Origin: Deltaproteobacteria bacterium
GTDB lineage: Bacteria; Desulfobacterota; Desulfomonilia; Desulfomonilales; Desulfomonilaceae
Assembly: GCA_016875095.1 (NCBI GenBank)
Contig: VGSG01000004.1
Coordinates: 1-64,000, forward strand
Direction of reading: 5' to 3'
DNA: 64,000 bases
Shown: piece by piece, positions 28,710-45,090 of the stretch
How positions within the stretch are numbered: position 1 is the first letter of the stretch
Layout: each line of letters opens with the position of its first letter
The notes under the pieces: generated by a model
What the model was told of the DNA's origin: nothing
The model's input: the letters and a program-made list of their open reading frames with translations, nothing else
Databases searched by the model: none
Translations under genes and position numbers: made by a program

Positions 28710-28868
28710 ATGAGCGCAAGCCTTACTGATCGTACGTCCCATTTCTTGGCCGAGCAAGCGGACACCCGCTCTTCGTTCTCGCCTAAGGACTGCGGTTCAT
28801 TCCGGAATTTCGACTACTATTATGGCTGGTGGTGGCCCTATCGATCCGCGGTGGGAGGTAGCGTGTAG
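28710..28868 (+). CDS. trpL: aromatic leader peptide controlling the trp-aro operon
   Basis: This 52-codon frame is too short for usual gene finding. Near its end it reads FRNFDYYYGWWWPYRSAVGG: three consecutive Tyr codons (28815-28823) and three consecutive Trp codons (28827-28835), with Phe at codons 31 and 34 and another Tyr at 44. It stops at 28866-28868, just before a terminator. This is the layout of a ribosome-mediated attenuator leader: stalling at the Tyr or Trp codons leaves 28845-28855 free to pair with 28902-28912. There is no Shine-Dalgarno sequence before the ATG and none at a possible internal TTG (codon 13). Unlike the enterobacterial trp leader, it contains both Tyr and Trp runs, fitting an operon that makes chorismate as well as Trp. 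Confidence 0.88.
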   Translation: MSASLTDRTSHFLAEQADTRSSFSPKDCGSFRNFDYYYGWWWPYRSAVGGSV

Positions 28869-28940
28869 AGTCTGAGCCTCAGATCAACCTGAATCGACAA
28901 GCCCACCGTGGATAACATCCCGGTGGGTTTTTTGTTTTTT
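28845..28940 (+). promoter_or_regulatory. trp-aro attenuator with antiterminator and terminator
   Basis: Terminator: CCCACCG (28902-28908) pairs with CGGTGGG (28921-28927), extended by GGAT/ATCC (28910-28913 with 28917-28920), then TTTTTTGTTTTTT. Antiterminator: TCCGCGGTGGG (28845-28855), directly after the Trp codons, pairs with CCCACCGTGGA (28902-28912) in 11 consecutive pairs, one of them G-U. The two use the same strand, so they exclude each other. A ribosome at the leader stop codon (28866) would cover 28849-28855 and favour the terminator. Confidence 0.85.
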
Positions 28941-34886: not shown

Positions 34887-35525
34887 ATGATCTTGCTACT
34901 CGATAACTACGATTCTTTTACCTACAACATTGCGCATGCTCTGGGCGCCTTGGGCAAAGTGGTCACCACAATAAGATCCGACACTGTCAGCGTCGCGGAG
35001 GTAGAAAGTATGGCCCCGGAGGCGATCGTCATCTCGCCGGGCCCGGGCCGACCCGACGAAGCCGGAATCAGCTCCAAGGTCATCGAGCGCTTTGCGGGTT
35101 TGGTCCCGATCCTGGGGGTCTGTCTTGGGCACCAGTGCATCGCGGAAGTCTTTGGAGCGAAAGTGAACCGGGCCGAACAGCCCGTTCACGGCAAGATCTC
35201 CGACATTTTCCACGATGGTCGCACCATCTACGCCGGACTGCGCAATCCGCTGAGAGCCACCCGTTACCACTCGCTCATCACTGCGGAAGAAACGGTGCGC
35301 CGGCCGTTGGAGATCTCGGCGTACACAGTGCGCGGGGAAGTGATGGGTCTGCGCTGCCCGGACATGATGATAGAAGGCGTGCAATTTCACCCTGAATCGA
35401 TCGGCACGCCCCAAGGCGGAGTGATCTTTCGAAACTTCGTGGAGCAGTATCTGAGCGCGTGTGAAGCCGCACAGCATGAGGCGAGTCCAGCGCCAATGAG
35501 CAACCAGGAAGGCGCCACATGGTAA
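34887..35525 (+). CDS. trpG: anthranilate synthase component II (glutamine amidotransferase)
   Basis: Class I amidotransferase giving ammonia to Trp[33 protein letters not shown] (oxyanion strand), [11 protein letters not shown] with nucleophile Cys79 and [14 protein letters not shown] with His168/Glu170 complete the triad. GGAGG lies six bases before the ATG. 212 aa. It is placed after trpA, not next to trpE as in most operons, and runs straight into aroF1 with a 7-base overlap. A role as pabA (folate) subunit is possible, but its position inside the Trp run favours TrpG. Confidence 0.93.
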
Positions 35526-36559
35526 TTGTCATGCGAGAAGACTGCCGGAAAAAGCAAGTGGGTGAGGTTTTGGCCGCGATCCGGCGGCGCGGACTGAAAC
35601 CACGGATGATTTCAGCAACATCCAGAGTGGTGATTGGGATTGTGGAGGACCTGGCAGGCAGTCTGGTGGAAGAATTGCGAAGCCTCATACTCCAAATGGA
35701 CGGCGTGGAGTCTATTGGGACTTTTGGCGCGTCCTGGAAACTCGTTTCTCGAAGCTTTCGAAACGAGAGAACCACCATCAGGGTGGGATCGAGCCTGATC
35801 GGCGGCCCTGATCCGGTGGTGATGGCAGGCCCTTGCGCTGTAGAGTCCCGCGAGGGCATCATGGAGATCGCGCAGGCGGTCAAGGAGGCGGGCGCGGCCG
35901 TTCTCCGCGGCGGCGCATTCAAGCCCAGAACGTCGCCTTACTCCTTCCGCGGGCTCGGGGAAGAGGGGCTTGAACACATGGCTGAAGCCTCGCGGATGAC
36001 TGGTCTTCCCATTGTAACGGAAGTGCTTACGCCGGAAGATGTGCCGCTTGTGGCCCGTTACGCTGATATCTTGCAGATAGGCGCGAGAAACATGCAGAAT
36101 TTTGCCCTGTTGGAAGCAGTTGGCGACACGGATAAGCCGGCGCTCATCAAACGGGGGCTCATGGCCACGGTGAAGGAGCTTTTGCTGTCTGCGGAATATA
36201 TTCTTGCCAGAGGGAATTCCCGGGTGATGTTCTGCGAGCGAGGGATCAGGACTTTCGAAACTGAAACACGCAATACGCTCGACATTTCTGCCGTGCCGCT
36301 GCTGAAGCAGCATTCGCATCTTCCGGTCATCGTGGATCCGAGCCATGCGGTCGGGAAGCGAGAGCTGGTCTCTGCCGTGGCGCTGGCGGCAATCGCAGCC
36401 GGAGCGGATGGATTGATGGTGGAAGTGCACACCAATCCCGACAAAGCTTTCTCCGACGGGCGTCAGAGCCTCACCCCGGAGGCGTTCCACGCGATCATGC
36501 GCCACGTGCCGGCCGTCGCGGCCGCGGTTGCGACGGCGTACAACGGAGGCGCACAGTGA
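35519..36559 (+). CDS. aroF: DAHP synthase with N-terminal regulatory domain
   Basis: First shikimate-pathway step (phosphoenolpyruvate plus erythrose-4-phosphate). Residues 1-67 form a ferredoxin-like ACT-type domain ([20 protein letters not shown] ... [12 protein letters not shown]), as in the type I-beta Thermotoga-like enzymes, where it mediates inhibition by aromatic amino acids. The barrel has [81 protein letters not shown] and [19 protein letters not shown]. 346 aa. Feedback-regulated by inference; a shorter isozyme without this domain is at 42180. Confidence 0.95.
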
Positions 36560-41898: not shown

Positions 41899-41930
41899 TT
41901 GACAGGCCGCGGGAGGTATGAGAGTATTGC
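41899..41930 (+). promoter_or_regulatory. candidate promoter of the aroF2-pheA-tyrA unit
   Basis: A perfect -35 TTGACA (41899-41904). The -10 is unclear: GAGTAT at 41922 (17-base spacer) or TATTGC at 41925 (20-base spacer). Placement before a leader peptide supports a promoter here. Confidence 0.4.
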
Positions 41931-41957: not shown

Positions 41958-42056
41958 ATGCATTTTCCGACGGATAGCATGGACAGATTAGGGCGATTCT
42001 ACGGCTACTTCTATTATTATTTCGCCTTTGTCTGCCCGTGCGCCCGAGGTGAATGA
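41958..42056 (+). CDS. Phe/Tyr leader peptide controlling aroF2-pheA-tyrA
   Basis: A 32-codon frame, ATG with GGAAGG ten bases upstream. Codons 14-24 read FYGYFYYYFAF: five Tyr and four Phe in eleven codons, including Tyr-Tyr-Tyr at 42012-42020. It ends CPCARGE and a TGA at 42054-42056, followed by two terminators. This is an attenuator leader of the pheL type but responding to both Phe and Tyr, matching the operon it precedes (DAHP synthase, chorismate mutase/prephenate dehydratase, prephenate dehydrogenase). Confidence 0.9.
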   Translation: MHFPTDSMDRLGRFYGYFYYYFAFVCPCARGE

Positions 42057-42157
42057 CGCGTAAGAAAATAAGCTGAATTCAACGAGGCCATGGGCGGACA
42101 GTCCATGGCCTTTTTGCTTTGCGTGAGGCCATGGCAAACACCATGGCCTCTTGTTTT
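42028..42157 (+). promoter_or_regulatory. tandem attenuator of aroF2-pheA-tyrA
   Basis: Terminator 1: GGCCATGG (42086-42093) with CCATGGCC (42103-42110), then TTTTTGCTTT. Terminator 2: GAGGCCATGG (42125-42134) with CCATGGCCTC (42141-42150), then TTGTTTT. Antiterminator: TTGTCTGCCCGTG (42028-42040), right after the aromatic codons, with CATGGGCGGACAG (42089-42101), 13 consecutive pairs, three of them G-U; this takes the 5' arm of terminator 1. The released CCATGGCCT (42103-42111) can then pair with AGGCCATGG (42126-42134), taking the 5' arm of terminator 2. Confidence 0.8.
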
Positions 42158-42179
42158 CGGCCGAAGGAGGTCCGGACAA

Positions 42180-43076
42180 ATGAACGGAGATTGCCTCATT
42201 ACGGTAGAGCCCCAGGTTTCTCCGCAGATCGCGATGGCGCCGCGCAACAGCCGACAGCTTCCTCCCTATCGGCTCGCCAGCCGCGCCGCGCATCCCAGGT
42301 CCACGGTTATCAAGGTCGGAGAGGCGCTTATTGGCGGTCCGAAGTTCGTGGTTATCGCGGGTCCTTGTTCGGTTGAAAGCGAATATCAGCTCGTTTCCAC
42401 AGCCAAGGCGGTTAAGGAATCGGGCGCGGCTATCCTTAGGGGCGGCGCGTTCAAGCCCCGAACGTCGCCGTACAGCTTCCAGGGGCTGGAAGAGGAAGGA
42501 TTGAAGCTCCTGGCGCGGGCTCGGGAAGTAACCGGCCTGCCGGTGGTGACCGAGGTGATGGATTCGGGGGACATCCCGCTGATTGCGAGACACGCGGATA
42601 TCGTCCAGGTAGGCGCGCGAAATATCCAGAACTTCTCGCTGTTGAAGAAACTCGGCAAAGTCAACAAGCCGATCCTTCTGAAGCGCGGACTCATGACGAC
42701 TCTGGACGAGTTCCTGATGTCCGCTGAATACATTCTGGCGGCAGGCAACGGGGACGTGATCCTGTGCGAACGCGGTATCCGAACTTTTGAAACCGCTACT
42801 CGCAACACGTTGGACCTGAGCGCGGTGCCGGTTCTCAAAGAGCGAACTCACCTACCCGTCATTGTTGACCCAAGCCACGCGGTCGGCAAGGCCCGGTACG
42901 TCGGTCCGCTCTGCCGCGCCGCCCTTGCTGTGGGCGCGGACGGGATCATGGTGGAGGTGCACTGCAATCCCTCCGAGGCGCTATGTGACGGCGAACAGTC
43001 GCTTACCCCGCGGCGATTCCGCGAACTCATGGACGAACTCAGCGCCCTGGCTCATTTGATTCAGCGTGAGTCCTGA
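42180..43076 (+). CDS. aroF: DAHP synthase, short form without regulatory domain
   Basis: Second isozyme. It has the same barrel motifs as the enzyme at 35519 ([100 protein letters not shown]), but only about 45 residues of unrelated sequence precede the barrel, so the ACT-like domain is missing. ATG 42180 has AAGGAGG eight bases upstream; the longer frame from 42090 runs through terminator 1 and is rejected. 298 aa. It is expected to be insensitive to allosteric inhibition and controlled by the Phe/Tyr attenuator. Confidence 0.94.
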
Positions 43077-43123: not shown

Positions 43124-44296
43124 ATGATAGTGACGGAAGAACAATTAATACATGGAATACGAGAGCGTATCGACCTGCTGGATGACGAGATCATTCGGCT
43201 GCTCCACGAGCGCGCCGCACAGGCCAAGGAGATCGGCCGCCTGAAACGGACAAACGGCTTGCCCGCGTTGGATGCGCAACGAGAGCGAGCAGTGCTGGAA
43301 AGACTCTCCTGCGGCAAATCCGGGCTGTTGCAACCCTCAGCCCTAAAACACATCTTCACCGAGATTATCGCCGCGTGCCGGGCAATCCAGGAACCTCTCA
43401 AGGTCTCACATCTCGGCCCTGAAGCCACCTTCACCCACATGGCCGCGATGGACTACTTCGGCCGCTCGTGCGAATTCTTCCCGAGAGACTCCATCGTAGA
43501 TGTGTTCCGGGACGTGCAGAGCGGCCACGCGCATTTCGGCGTCGCGCCGGTGGAAAATTCCACCGAAGGTTCGGTCGGGCTCACTCTAGACCAGTTGGCG
43601 GACGGCGATTTGAAGATCTGCGGAGAAATCTACCTACGCATTTCCCACGCGCTCATGTCTACAGAACGGGATCTCAGCCGCATCAAGGAGGTCTTGTCGC
43701 ATCCGCAAGCTTTGGGGCAATGCTTGGGCTGGTTGTCACGCAACCTTCCCGCCAGGCCCTTAGTGCAGATGTCCAGCACCGCGGTCGCCGCGAAAAAGGC
43801 CGCGGAGCAACCCGGATCCGCGGCTGTGGGCAATGAGGCTCTAGCTCGTCTGCACGGACTGCACGTGCTTGCACGCGGCATTCAGGATCGGTCCACGAAT
43901 GTGACGCGATTTCTCGTCCTTGGAAATGAGGAGCATGCGCCAACCGGCCGGGATAAAACCTCGATTCTCTTTTCCACGCCGCACCGTCCCGGCGCGCTAT
44001 TGAAGGCATTGACGCCTTTTTCTCAGCAAGGCGTGAATATTTCCCGCATTGAGTCACGGCCGTCAAAAGAAACGCCGTGGGAGTATATCTTCTTTGCGGA
44101 CTTTGAAGGTCACGTTTCAGACGAACACGTCCGAGCCGCGCTGGAAGAGTTCTCCCAATGTGTGAATCGACTCAGGATGTTGGGCTCTTATCCGGCGGGT
44201 GACCGGGCGGGGAGGAGCGCCCTCTCTCTAGAAGCAGTGATGTCTGCGTCAGGAGGAGAAAAGGAGCCATGCACGCGCGTGAACCTGAAAGCATAG
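43124..44296 (+). CDS. pheA: chorismate mutase - prephenate dehydratase (P-protein)
   Basis: Bifunctional: chorismate to prephenate to phenylpyruvate. Residues 1-90 are an AroQ-type mutase (RERIDLLDDEIIRLLHERAA, QAKEIGRLKR). Residues about 95-275 are prephenate dehydratase (LGPEATFTHMAAMDYFG, GVAPVENSTEGSVGLTLDQL, STNVTRFLVLG). The ACT domain follows at about 285-360 (HRPGALLKALTPFSQQGVNI, SRIESRPSKETPWEYIFFAD) with the Gly-Ala-Leu and Glu-Ser-Arg-Pro positions used for Phe inhibition. 390 aa with a short Ser-rich tail. Overlaps tyrA by 28 bases. Confidence 0.96.
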   Translation: MIVTEEQLIHGIRERIDLLDDEIIRLLHERAAQAKEIGRLKRTNGLPALDAQRERAVLERLSCGKSGLLQPSALKHIFTEIIAACRAIQEPLKVSHLGPEATFTHMAAMDYFGRSCEFFPRDSIVDVFRDVQSGHAHFGVAPVENSTEGSVGLTLDQLADGDLKICGEIYLRISHALMSTERDLSRIKEVLSHPQALGQCLGWLSRNLPARPLVQMSSTAVAAKKAAEQPGSAAVGNEALARLHGLHVLARGIQDRSTNVTRFLVLGNEEHAPTGRDKTSILFSTPHRPGALLKALTPFSQQGVNISRIESRPSKETPWEYIFFADFEGHVSDEHVRAALEEFSQCVNRLRMLGSYPAGDRAGRSALSLEAVMSASGGEKEPCTRVNLKA

Positions 44297-45090
44297 TAAT
44301 TGTGGGTGGCCTGGGCCGGATGGGCTCTCGGATGCACAAATTATTTCTCGACGCGGGCTACCGCGTCGAGGTTGCAGACAAAGCCACCGGACCTATTGCA
44401 TATGAGTCTATCGCGGAACACGACGTCATACTGCTCGCGGCGCCCATCCCCGCGCTGGAGGAATTGATGGAAGCCTTGGGGCCTTTTACGCGTCCCGACG
44501 GCGCGATTATTGACATCGCGTCCGTGAAAGCCGCGCCGATTCAAGCTATGCTGCTCCACGCCAGAGGTGAGGTCATCGGAAGTCACCCGCTCTTCGGCCC
44601 GGACACACCCTCTTTGCAGGACCAGATCGTTTTCGTTTGCCCTGCTCGCTCCAAGAAGTGGGTTGTGTGGTTTCGGCATTTCATGGAACTACAGGGCGCA
44701 AGGGTCGTGGTAATCGATCCCGACGTCCACGATCGACTCATGGCTGTGGCGCAGGTGTTCAGGCACATGCTCCTCTTTTGTTTCGCCCGGTCTCTTATGA
44801 ACATGGACTTCGACCTGCGGTCCTATTTGCCTGTTTCAGGCCCATGGTTTTCCCAGCTCACAGAGATGTTAGGCTGCCAGCTCAAACAGCGGCCCGGACT
44901 GTACGCGGAGCTTGCGGCGCATAATTCCGCCACTGGCCAGGTGGCGGAGAACTTCCTGAGGGCCGCGCAGGAAATCGCCGCGTCGTACAGGGACTCAGAT
45001 TCCTCAAGTCTTATCAGCATCATAGATGATCTTTCCAATTACATGCTCACCGAGATCTCGCCGGCCGAATCTTCTTCCGCCACACCCTGA
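44269..45090 (+). CDS. tyrA: prephenate dehydrogenase
   Basis: Oxidative decarboxylation of prephenate to 4-hydroxyphenylpyruvate. N-terminal nucleotide fold VIVGGLGRMGSRMHKLFLDA, IDIASVKAAPIQAM, then IGSHPLFGPDTPSLQDQIVF (substrate-binding His) and a helical dimer domain (FDLRSYLPVSGPWFSQLTEM). 273 aa, resembling the dehydrogenase part of the enterobacterial T-protein but without a fused mutase or ACT domain, so Tyr inhibition is not evident. Cofactor (NAD or NADP) and use of arogenate cannot be decided by eye. Last gene of the aromatic cluster. Confidence 0.92.
   Translation: MHAREPESIVIVGGLGRMGSRMHKLFLDAGYRVEVADKATGPIAYESIAEHDVILLAAPIPALEELMEALGPFTRPDGAIIDIASVKAAPIQAMLLHARGEVIGSHPLFGPDTPSLQDQIVFVCPARSKKWVVWFRHFMELQGARVVVIDPDVHDRLMAVAQVFRHMLLFCFARSLMNMDFDLRSYLPVSGPWFSQLTEMLGCQLKQRPGLYAELAAHNSATGQVAENFLRAAQEIAASYRDSDSSSLISIIDDLSNYMLTEISPAESSSATP

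Follow-up and report, generated by a model that had tools for sequence, protein, structure and literature searches.

Upstream of an aroF-pheA-tyrA operon, within the 64,000-nucleotide stretch of DNA that was analysed (the window), lies a leader that is almost certainly a ribosome-mediated transcription attenuator of that operon. Comparison of related leaders, together with a kinetic argument on folding of the growing transcript, makes it probable that this leader works as a domino attenuator, in which one leader peptide would sense charged tRNA-Phe and tRNA-Tyr and the outcome at a first terminator would cascade to a second through pairing of two hairpin arms, segments 4 and 5 (written 4:5).

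Textbook attenuation uses one terminator. A conserved two-terminator form, in which co-variation between the linked strands can be measured and of which single-stage variants occur naturally, makes the reason for adding a second stage testable, the candidate benefits being tighter repression, a larger dynamic range or ultrasensitivity. The system also allows one to ask how far kinetic strand capture, as against equilibrium folding, decides a terminator.

Operon and leader peptide

The genes of the operon, all on the forward strand, encode an aroF-like type I-beta DAHP synthase (42180-43076), which is the gene under control, a chorismate mutase/prephenate dehydratase with an ACT domain (pheA, 43124-44296) and a prephenate dehydrogenase (tyrA, 44269-45090); Phe and Tyr are therefore its end products. 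A Shine-Dalgarno sequence of aroF, AAGGAGG, was recognised by eye at 42164-42170 (forward strand). Two type I-beta DAHP synthases occur in the window, at 35519-36559 and 42180-43076, the latter being without the N-terminal extension of the former.

Direct reading of the forward strand gave a leader peptide ORF at 41958-42056, MHFPTDSMDRLGRFYGYFYYYFAFVCPCARGE, with the regulatory codons F Y G Y F Y Y Y F A F at 41997-42029, as the original prediction had stated. A short ORF with end-product codons (FYGYFYYYFAF) thus stands upstream of aroF-pheA-tyrA, as in amino-acid attenuators, and is kept in relatives. The ATG at 41979 (MDRLGR...) is probably an alternative leader start, because the leaders of relatives begin with MDR or MGR at that point. 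On the same strand TTGACA (41899-41904), with a weak GAGTAT 17 nucleotides downstream, may be the -35 element of the leader promoter; it was picked out by eye as a weak candidate and was not called by the promoter scan.

Terminators and competing pairings

All segments described here lie on the forward strand. Terminator 1 (T1; 42084-42112) has arms at 42084-42093 and 42103-42112 followed by a T-rich tail, and was supported by terminator scan, folding and alignment. Terminator 2 (T2; 42125-42150), supported by terminator scan and alignment, has arms at 42125-42134 and 42141-42150 and a T-rich tail (TTGTTTT, 42151-42157) that was seen both by eye and in the scan. The scan found both terminators with their T-rich tails, whereas shuffled sequences gave 0.9 +/- 1.2 such sites, and the terminator region folded better than all 200 dinucleotide shuffles (z -4.5; -4.0 to -4.5 across the leader). 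Two predicted intrinsic terminators thus stand between the leader ORF and the first gene, and the nearly identical arms that had been proposed for them are in fact identical in the window.

Complementarity and alignments identify 42103-42111 (CCATGGCCT), the 3' arm of T1, as segment 4, and 42126-42134 (AGGCCATGG), the 5' arm of T2, as segment 5, with which segment 4 would pair when T1 is open. The two are exact reverse complements, a point of the original prediction that direct reading confirmed, as it did the other sequences, coordinates and complementarities quoted there. As the arms of both hairpins are CCATGG palindromes, arm complementarity within a single sequence is partly automatic, and the weight is carried by conservation in relatives.

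Folding and alignments place segment 2, the antiterminator strand, at 42022-42041. Its part at 42028-42040 (TTGTCTGCCCGTG) had been proposed to pair over 13 bases with 42089-42101, and all 13 of 13 positions do so, three of them as G.U; the latter stretch, identified in alignments, is segment 3 and overlaps the T1 5' arm. In the folded leader, segment 2 also forms an 18-pair hairpin with 41977-41996 (segment 1, from folding and relatives), the 25-nucleotide loop of which (41997-42021) contains the aromatic codons F14 to Y21. Since this 1:2 hairpin includes the antiterminator strand, it is the protector that was absent from the original prediction. The pairing of GGGCG (41991) with CGCCC (42041), which had been suggested as the block on the antiterminator, was ruled out as protector by folding, where the 18-pair hairpin appears instead. 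Segment 1 resembles segment 3 in the window and in relatives; in the latter it frequently spans the start of the leader (ATGGACAGA, ATGGGTAGA). Among 25 relatives the 1:2 duplex energy was below that of shuffled segments (mean z -1.8, s.e. 0.3), significance not being reached in every relative.

Antiterminator (2:3) and protector (1:2) are thus mutually exclusive, and by its predicted pairings the leader is a six-segment chain, with 1:2, 3:4 (T1) and 5:6 (T2) set against 2:3 and 4:5.

Conservation of the pairings in relatives

Relatives were gathered from the DAHP synthases of 60 genomes and from a public genome set, and the regions upstream were examined. In about 70 relatives aroF was preceded by an aromatic-rich leader ORF; a VCP motif conserved after the aromatic run corresponds to the translation of segment 2, GTCTGCCC. 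By the U-tail criterion T1 and T2 were both present in 49 aroF leaders, whereas T2 or its T tract was absent in some relatives (L032, L041, L026). Locus L009, with the T1 3' arm destroyed and T2 intact, is a natural single-terminator variant or an assembly error.

Across the 49 leaders, cognate duplexes of segments 4 and 5 averaged -15.5 kcal/mol against -12.6 kcal/mol for mismatched partners (z -7.0, 0/5000), and the mirror control, T1 5' arm with T2 3' arm, gave -11.9 kcal/mol. The 4:5 pairing persists through full sequence change, as in the Geobacter-type CCCCGG with CCGGGG and in L036 and L007. In an alignment of 26 leaders T1 and T2 were 97% paired, 6 of the pairs showing double changes, while 4:5 was 92.8% and 2:3 87.8% paired; the mirror pairing, at 84.2%, was no better than shuffles, and double changes in the structure made of 2:3 and 4:5 (4 pairs) were not above shuffles. 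Classical double-change covariation is, by itself, weak for 4:5, and mirror and joint-state tests were therefore required.

With 90 distinct leaders 4:5 was 93.5% paired, against 91.6% with permuted partners (0/500), a small effect; the corresponding values were 83.8% and 82.9% for the mirror and 91.0% and 86.8% for 2:3 (z 8.3). The mirror fitted better than 4:5 in 14 of 88 loci. When joint states were counted at one T1/T2 position of the 90 leaders, 34 were of the GC/GC type and 28 AU/AU; T1 AU with T2 G, which leaves 4:5 a tolerated U.G, was found 15 times, and T1 GC with T2 AU, which breaks it as C.A, once, the loci being related and the changes counted without a tree. Weighting 43 sequence clusters equally left 9.2 tolerated against 1.0 forbidden. 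Concerted duplication predicts symmetry, and the 15-to-1 asymmetry thus favours selection on 4:5. Sequence reading and comparison of relatives together establish the leader, its two terminators, and both the complementarity and the conservation of 1:2, 2:3, 3:4, 4:5 and 5:6. The original prediction had made its case depend on compensatory change in relatives: 2:3 passes that check, and so does 4:5, though more on the strength of the directional bias in its changes than of classical double changes.

These data bear on an alternative account, that of an ordinary single attenuator, in which T1 alone is stall-controlled via 2:3, T2 acts on its own as a leaky damper that reduces expression by a constant factor, and 4:5 is a by-product of duplication of T1. 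Identical arms of T1 and T2 in the window would suit it, as would the imperfect T-rich tail of T2 there (TTGTTTTC) and the absence of T2 or 4:5 from a few loci. It would, however, have the mirror pairing kept as well as 4:5, and the mirror is less well kept; sequence-divergent T2s, those of the Geobacter type, L036 and L007, retain 4:5, and the joint states lean in the direction that 4:5 predicts.

A second account gives the T2 hairpin a role mainly in translation or mRNA stability, setting ribosome access to aroF or protecting the mRNA end instead of terminating transcription. T2 ends 14 nucleotides before the Shine-Dalgarno sequence, and in the class of L026 a downstream hairpin without a T tract abuts that sequence; but most loci carry a T-rich tail directly 3' of T2, and in the window the Shine-Dalgarno sequence is not covered by T2, so that we regard this account as very improbable. 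In L026, L019 and L016 the second hairpin, which is weak or has lost its T tract, lies directly against the Shine-Dalgarno sequence, its 5' arm still resembling a partner of the T1 3' arm; in this class it has possibly shifted from terminator to another role.

Folding with a stalled ribosome and a growing transcript

Stalling was modelled by equilibrium folding with a ribosome footprint, upstream structure being excluded and pairing across the ribosome disallowed. In transcripts reaching up to T1, an A site at codons 18-20 gave P(2:3) of 0.94-0.95 and P(T1) of at most 0.02, while from codon 21 on T1 was back at 0.90 or more; P(T1) was 1.0 for a ribosome that had reached the stop codon, and likewise when no ribosome was placed on the RNA. 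If pairing across the ribosome was permitted, a stall at codons 18-20 no longer reduced P(T1).

In the full-length fold, complete T2 formed with a P of 0.99 even when T1 was open. An equilibrium account of T2 opening is thereby ruled out: if T2 opens via 4:5, the effect must be kinetic, and the cascade depends on kinetics. The competition was followed by an accessible-length analysis, in which the T1 5' arm was engaged and the RNA was freed stepwise. The 4:5 pairing had a P of 0.99 with RNA free to 42146 and of 0.93 at 42148, T2 prevailing only at 42150; 4:5 thus wins only while the last ~2-4 bases of the T2 3' arm are unmade or inside RNA polymerase. About ten or more bases at the growing end of the transcript are covered by RNA polymerase, and 4:5 would therefore be favoured during the interval when T2 must act. 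Among 88 leaders, 4:5 beat the growing T2 in 88% with 4 nucleotides of the 3' arm missing and in 81% with 3 missing, compared with 77% and 64%, respectively, in a control with T1 3' arms swapped between loci.

The original cascade reading is supported with two corrections, the 18-pair hairpin as protector and the kinetic nature of T2 opening. It had been proposed that the released T1 3' arm opens T2, which holds against an incomplete T2 and fails against a complete one. The proposal that one stalling event would switch both terminators fares similarly: a modelled stall at codons 18-20 abolishes T1, but the link to T2 is kinetic only. Formation of T2 at equilibrium with T1 either open or closed is also what an independent T2 would show; weighed with the conservation data above, that account is in our judgement unlikely.

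We accordingly set out the domino mechanism in conditional terms. As long as Phe and Tyr suffice, the ribosome would traverse the leader ORF and segment 1 would re-pair with segment 2 behind it; with 1:2 formed, segment 3 would be free for segment 4 and terminator 1 would form. A polymerase escaping T1 would meet 5:6, terminator 2, so that leakage would be cut twice. A stall in the FYYY codons would hold segments 1 and 2 apart and leave segment 2 free to pair with segment 3, so that T1 would fail; the released segment 4 would then capture segment 5 before segment 6 emerges, T2 would fail as well, and the operon would be transcribed. That transcription actually stops at both sites, that the ribosome stalls and that T2 is captured kinetically are inferences from comparison and folding.

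Distribution of the family

At an E value of at most 0.001, a covariance model comprising T1 and T2 had matches in 180 of the 395 sampled genomes of the phylum and in 115 of 246 genera, frequently with more than one match in a genome. In another phylum 3 of the 150 genomes searched gave matches, all of them weak (at most 38.6 bits). Those relatives that carry names (Syntrophaceae, Desulfarculus) are deltaproteobacterial and hence, by implication, Desulfobacterota-like. That the hairpins arose by chance or as a mobile palindrome, with no regulator involved, would accord with the simple, self-complementary CCATGG palindromes; we nevertheless give the idea practically no credence, given that position, leader peptide, operon and structure are conserved across the matched genomes of the phylum and that matches elsewhere are few and weak.

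Gene context was viewed for forty further matches, ten of which were checked by profile. Matches preceded type I-alpha DAHP synthase, ADTH synthase, trpE (WWW leaders), a TrpB-like enzyme (WWCWWW), phenylacetate-CoA ligase and periplasmic binding proteins of transporters (Phe or Tyr leaders). ADTH synthase catalyses the first step of the archaeal-type pathway to dehydroquinate; this leader type precedes it in several genera (L165, L168, L170, L172-L174, L176, L177, L182, L183). Single cases of Leu- or Ile-rich leader ORFs (L149, L152, L148) lay upstream of genes for FabK/nitronate monooxygenase-like proteins and acyl-CoA dehydrogenases, a hint that branched-chain amino acids may be served by this chassis too.

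In the genome studied here, a Trp attenuator precedes trpE in the window (28740-28930), with a leader reading ...NFDYYYGWWWPYRSAVGGSV* and a single terminator, CCCACCG...CGGTGGG TTTTTTG (28902-28927); one genome thus holds trp with one terminator and aroF-pheA-tyrA with two. A second, weak model match in this genome (L112; G000 contig 123, 6442-6571, minus strand) has a Trp leader, MIFTGHNNWWRRWLIASRRFALG, and one terminator, and directly follows genes whose products resemble subunits of indolepyruvate ferredoxin oxidoreductase.

On balance we favour, with some reserve, the view that these leaders make up a hitherto undescribed class of domino attenuators, spread across the phylum, whose six segments repeat one unit of complementarity. 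In this view one stall switches two terminators by co-transcriptional strand capture, and the chassis has been combined with leader peptides for Phe, for Tyr, for both or for Trp, possibly also for Leu/Ile, before biosynthetic, transport and catabolic genes. Rfam has no entry for this leader, and the covariance model can serve to annotate the regulation of aromatic amino acids in this large and little-studied phylum.

Comparison with known systems

When the window was searched against Rfam, only tRNAs reached the gathering threshold. The best hit in the leader scored 15.7 bits (rli61, gathering 50); the leader matched neither Phe_leader nor any other Rfam family, and a permissive threshold gave noise only. 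The openly accessible literature yielded no paper on a deltaproteobacterial aromatic leader; subscription literature may differ.

The aroF leader shares with the gammaproteobacterial pheA, trp and his attenuators (Rfam Phe_leader and relatives) a leader peptide with regulatory codons, a 1:2 protector, a 2:3 antiterminator, a 3:4 terminator and the pathway. Those attenuators have four segments and one terminator, whereas the aroF leader adds segments 5 and 6, which would form a second terminator coupled via 4:5.

Some gammaproteobacterial rimP leaders, too, have tandem terminators, and there the motif of the second is the inverse of that in the first (Naville and Gautheret 2010, PMC2965389). 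The rimP leaders, however, are without an amino-acid leader peptide, and their gene and presumed signal differ. In the mgtCBR tandem attenuators of Salmonella, two short ORFs lie in one long leader (PMC3641672). Two control steps per leader are common to both systems, but in the aroF leader one ORF would drive both terminators.

For ermK of Bacillus licheniformis, Kwak reportedly described in 1991 two mutually exclusive conformations and truncated RNAs from both terminators. The ermK attenuator has two adjacent Rho-independent terminators (PMC4335068) and is the closest system by layout, having in common with the scheme proposed for the aroF leader one leader peptide that controls two successive intrinsic terminators. 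Erythromycin stalling as the signal, a resistance gene and a Gram-positive host are peculiar to ermK, and a sequence relation between the two is not expected; the aroF leader, in contrast, has Phe/Tyr-sensing codons and belongs to a phylum-wide family. The alternating pairings through which one stall would open both tandem terminators, as in an ermK-type mechanism, are present and conserved in the aroF leader. The two-terminator ermK attenuator is a precedent for the logic, and we therefore regard the aroF leader as a variant of ribosome-mediated attenuation.
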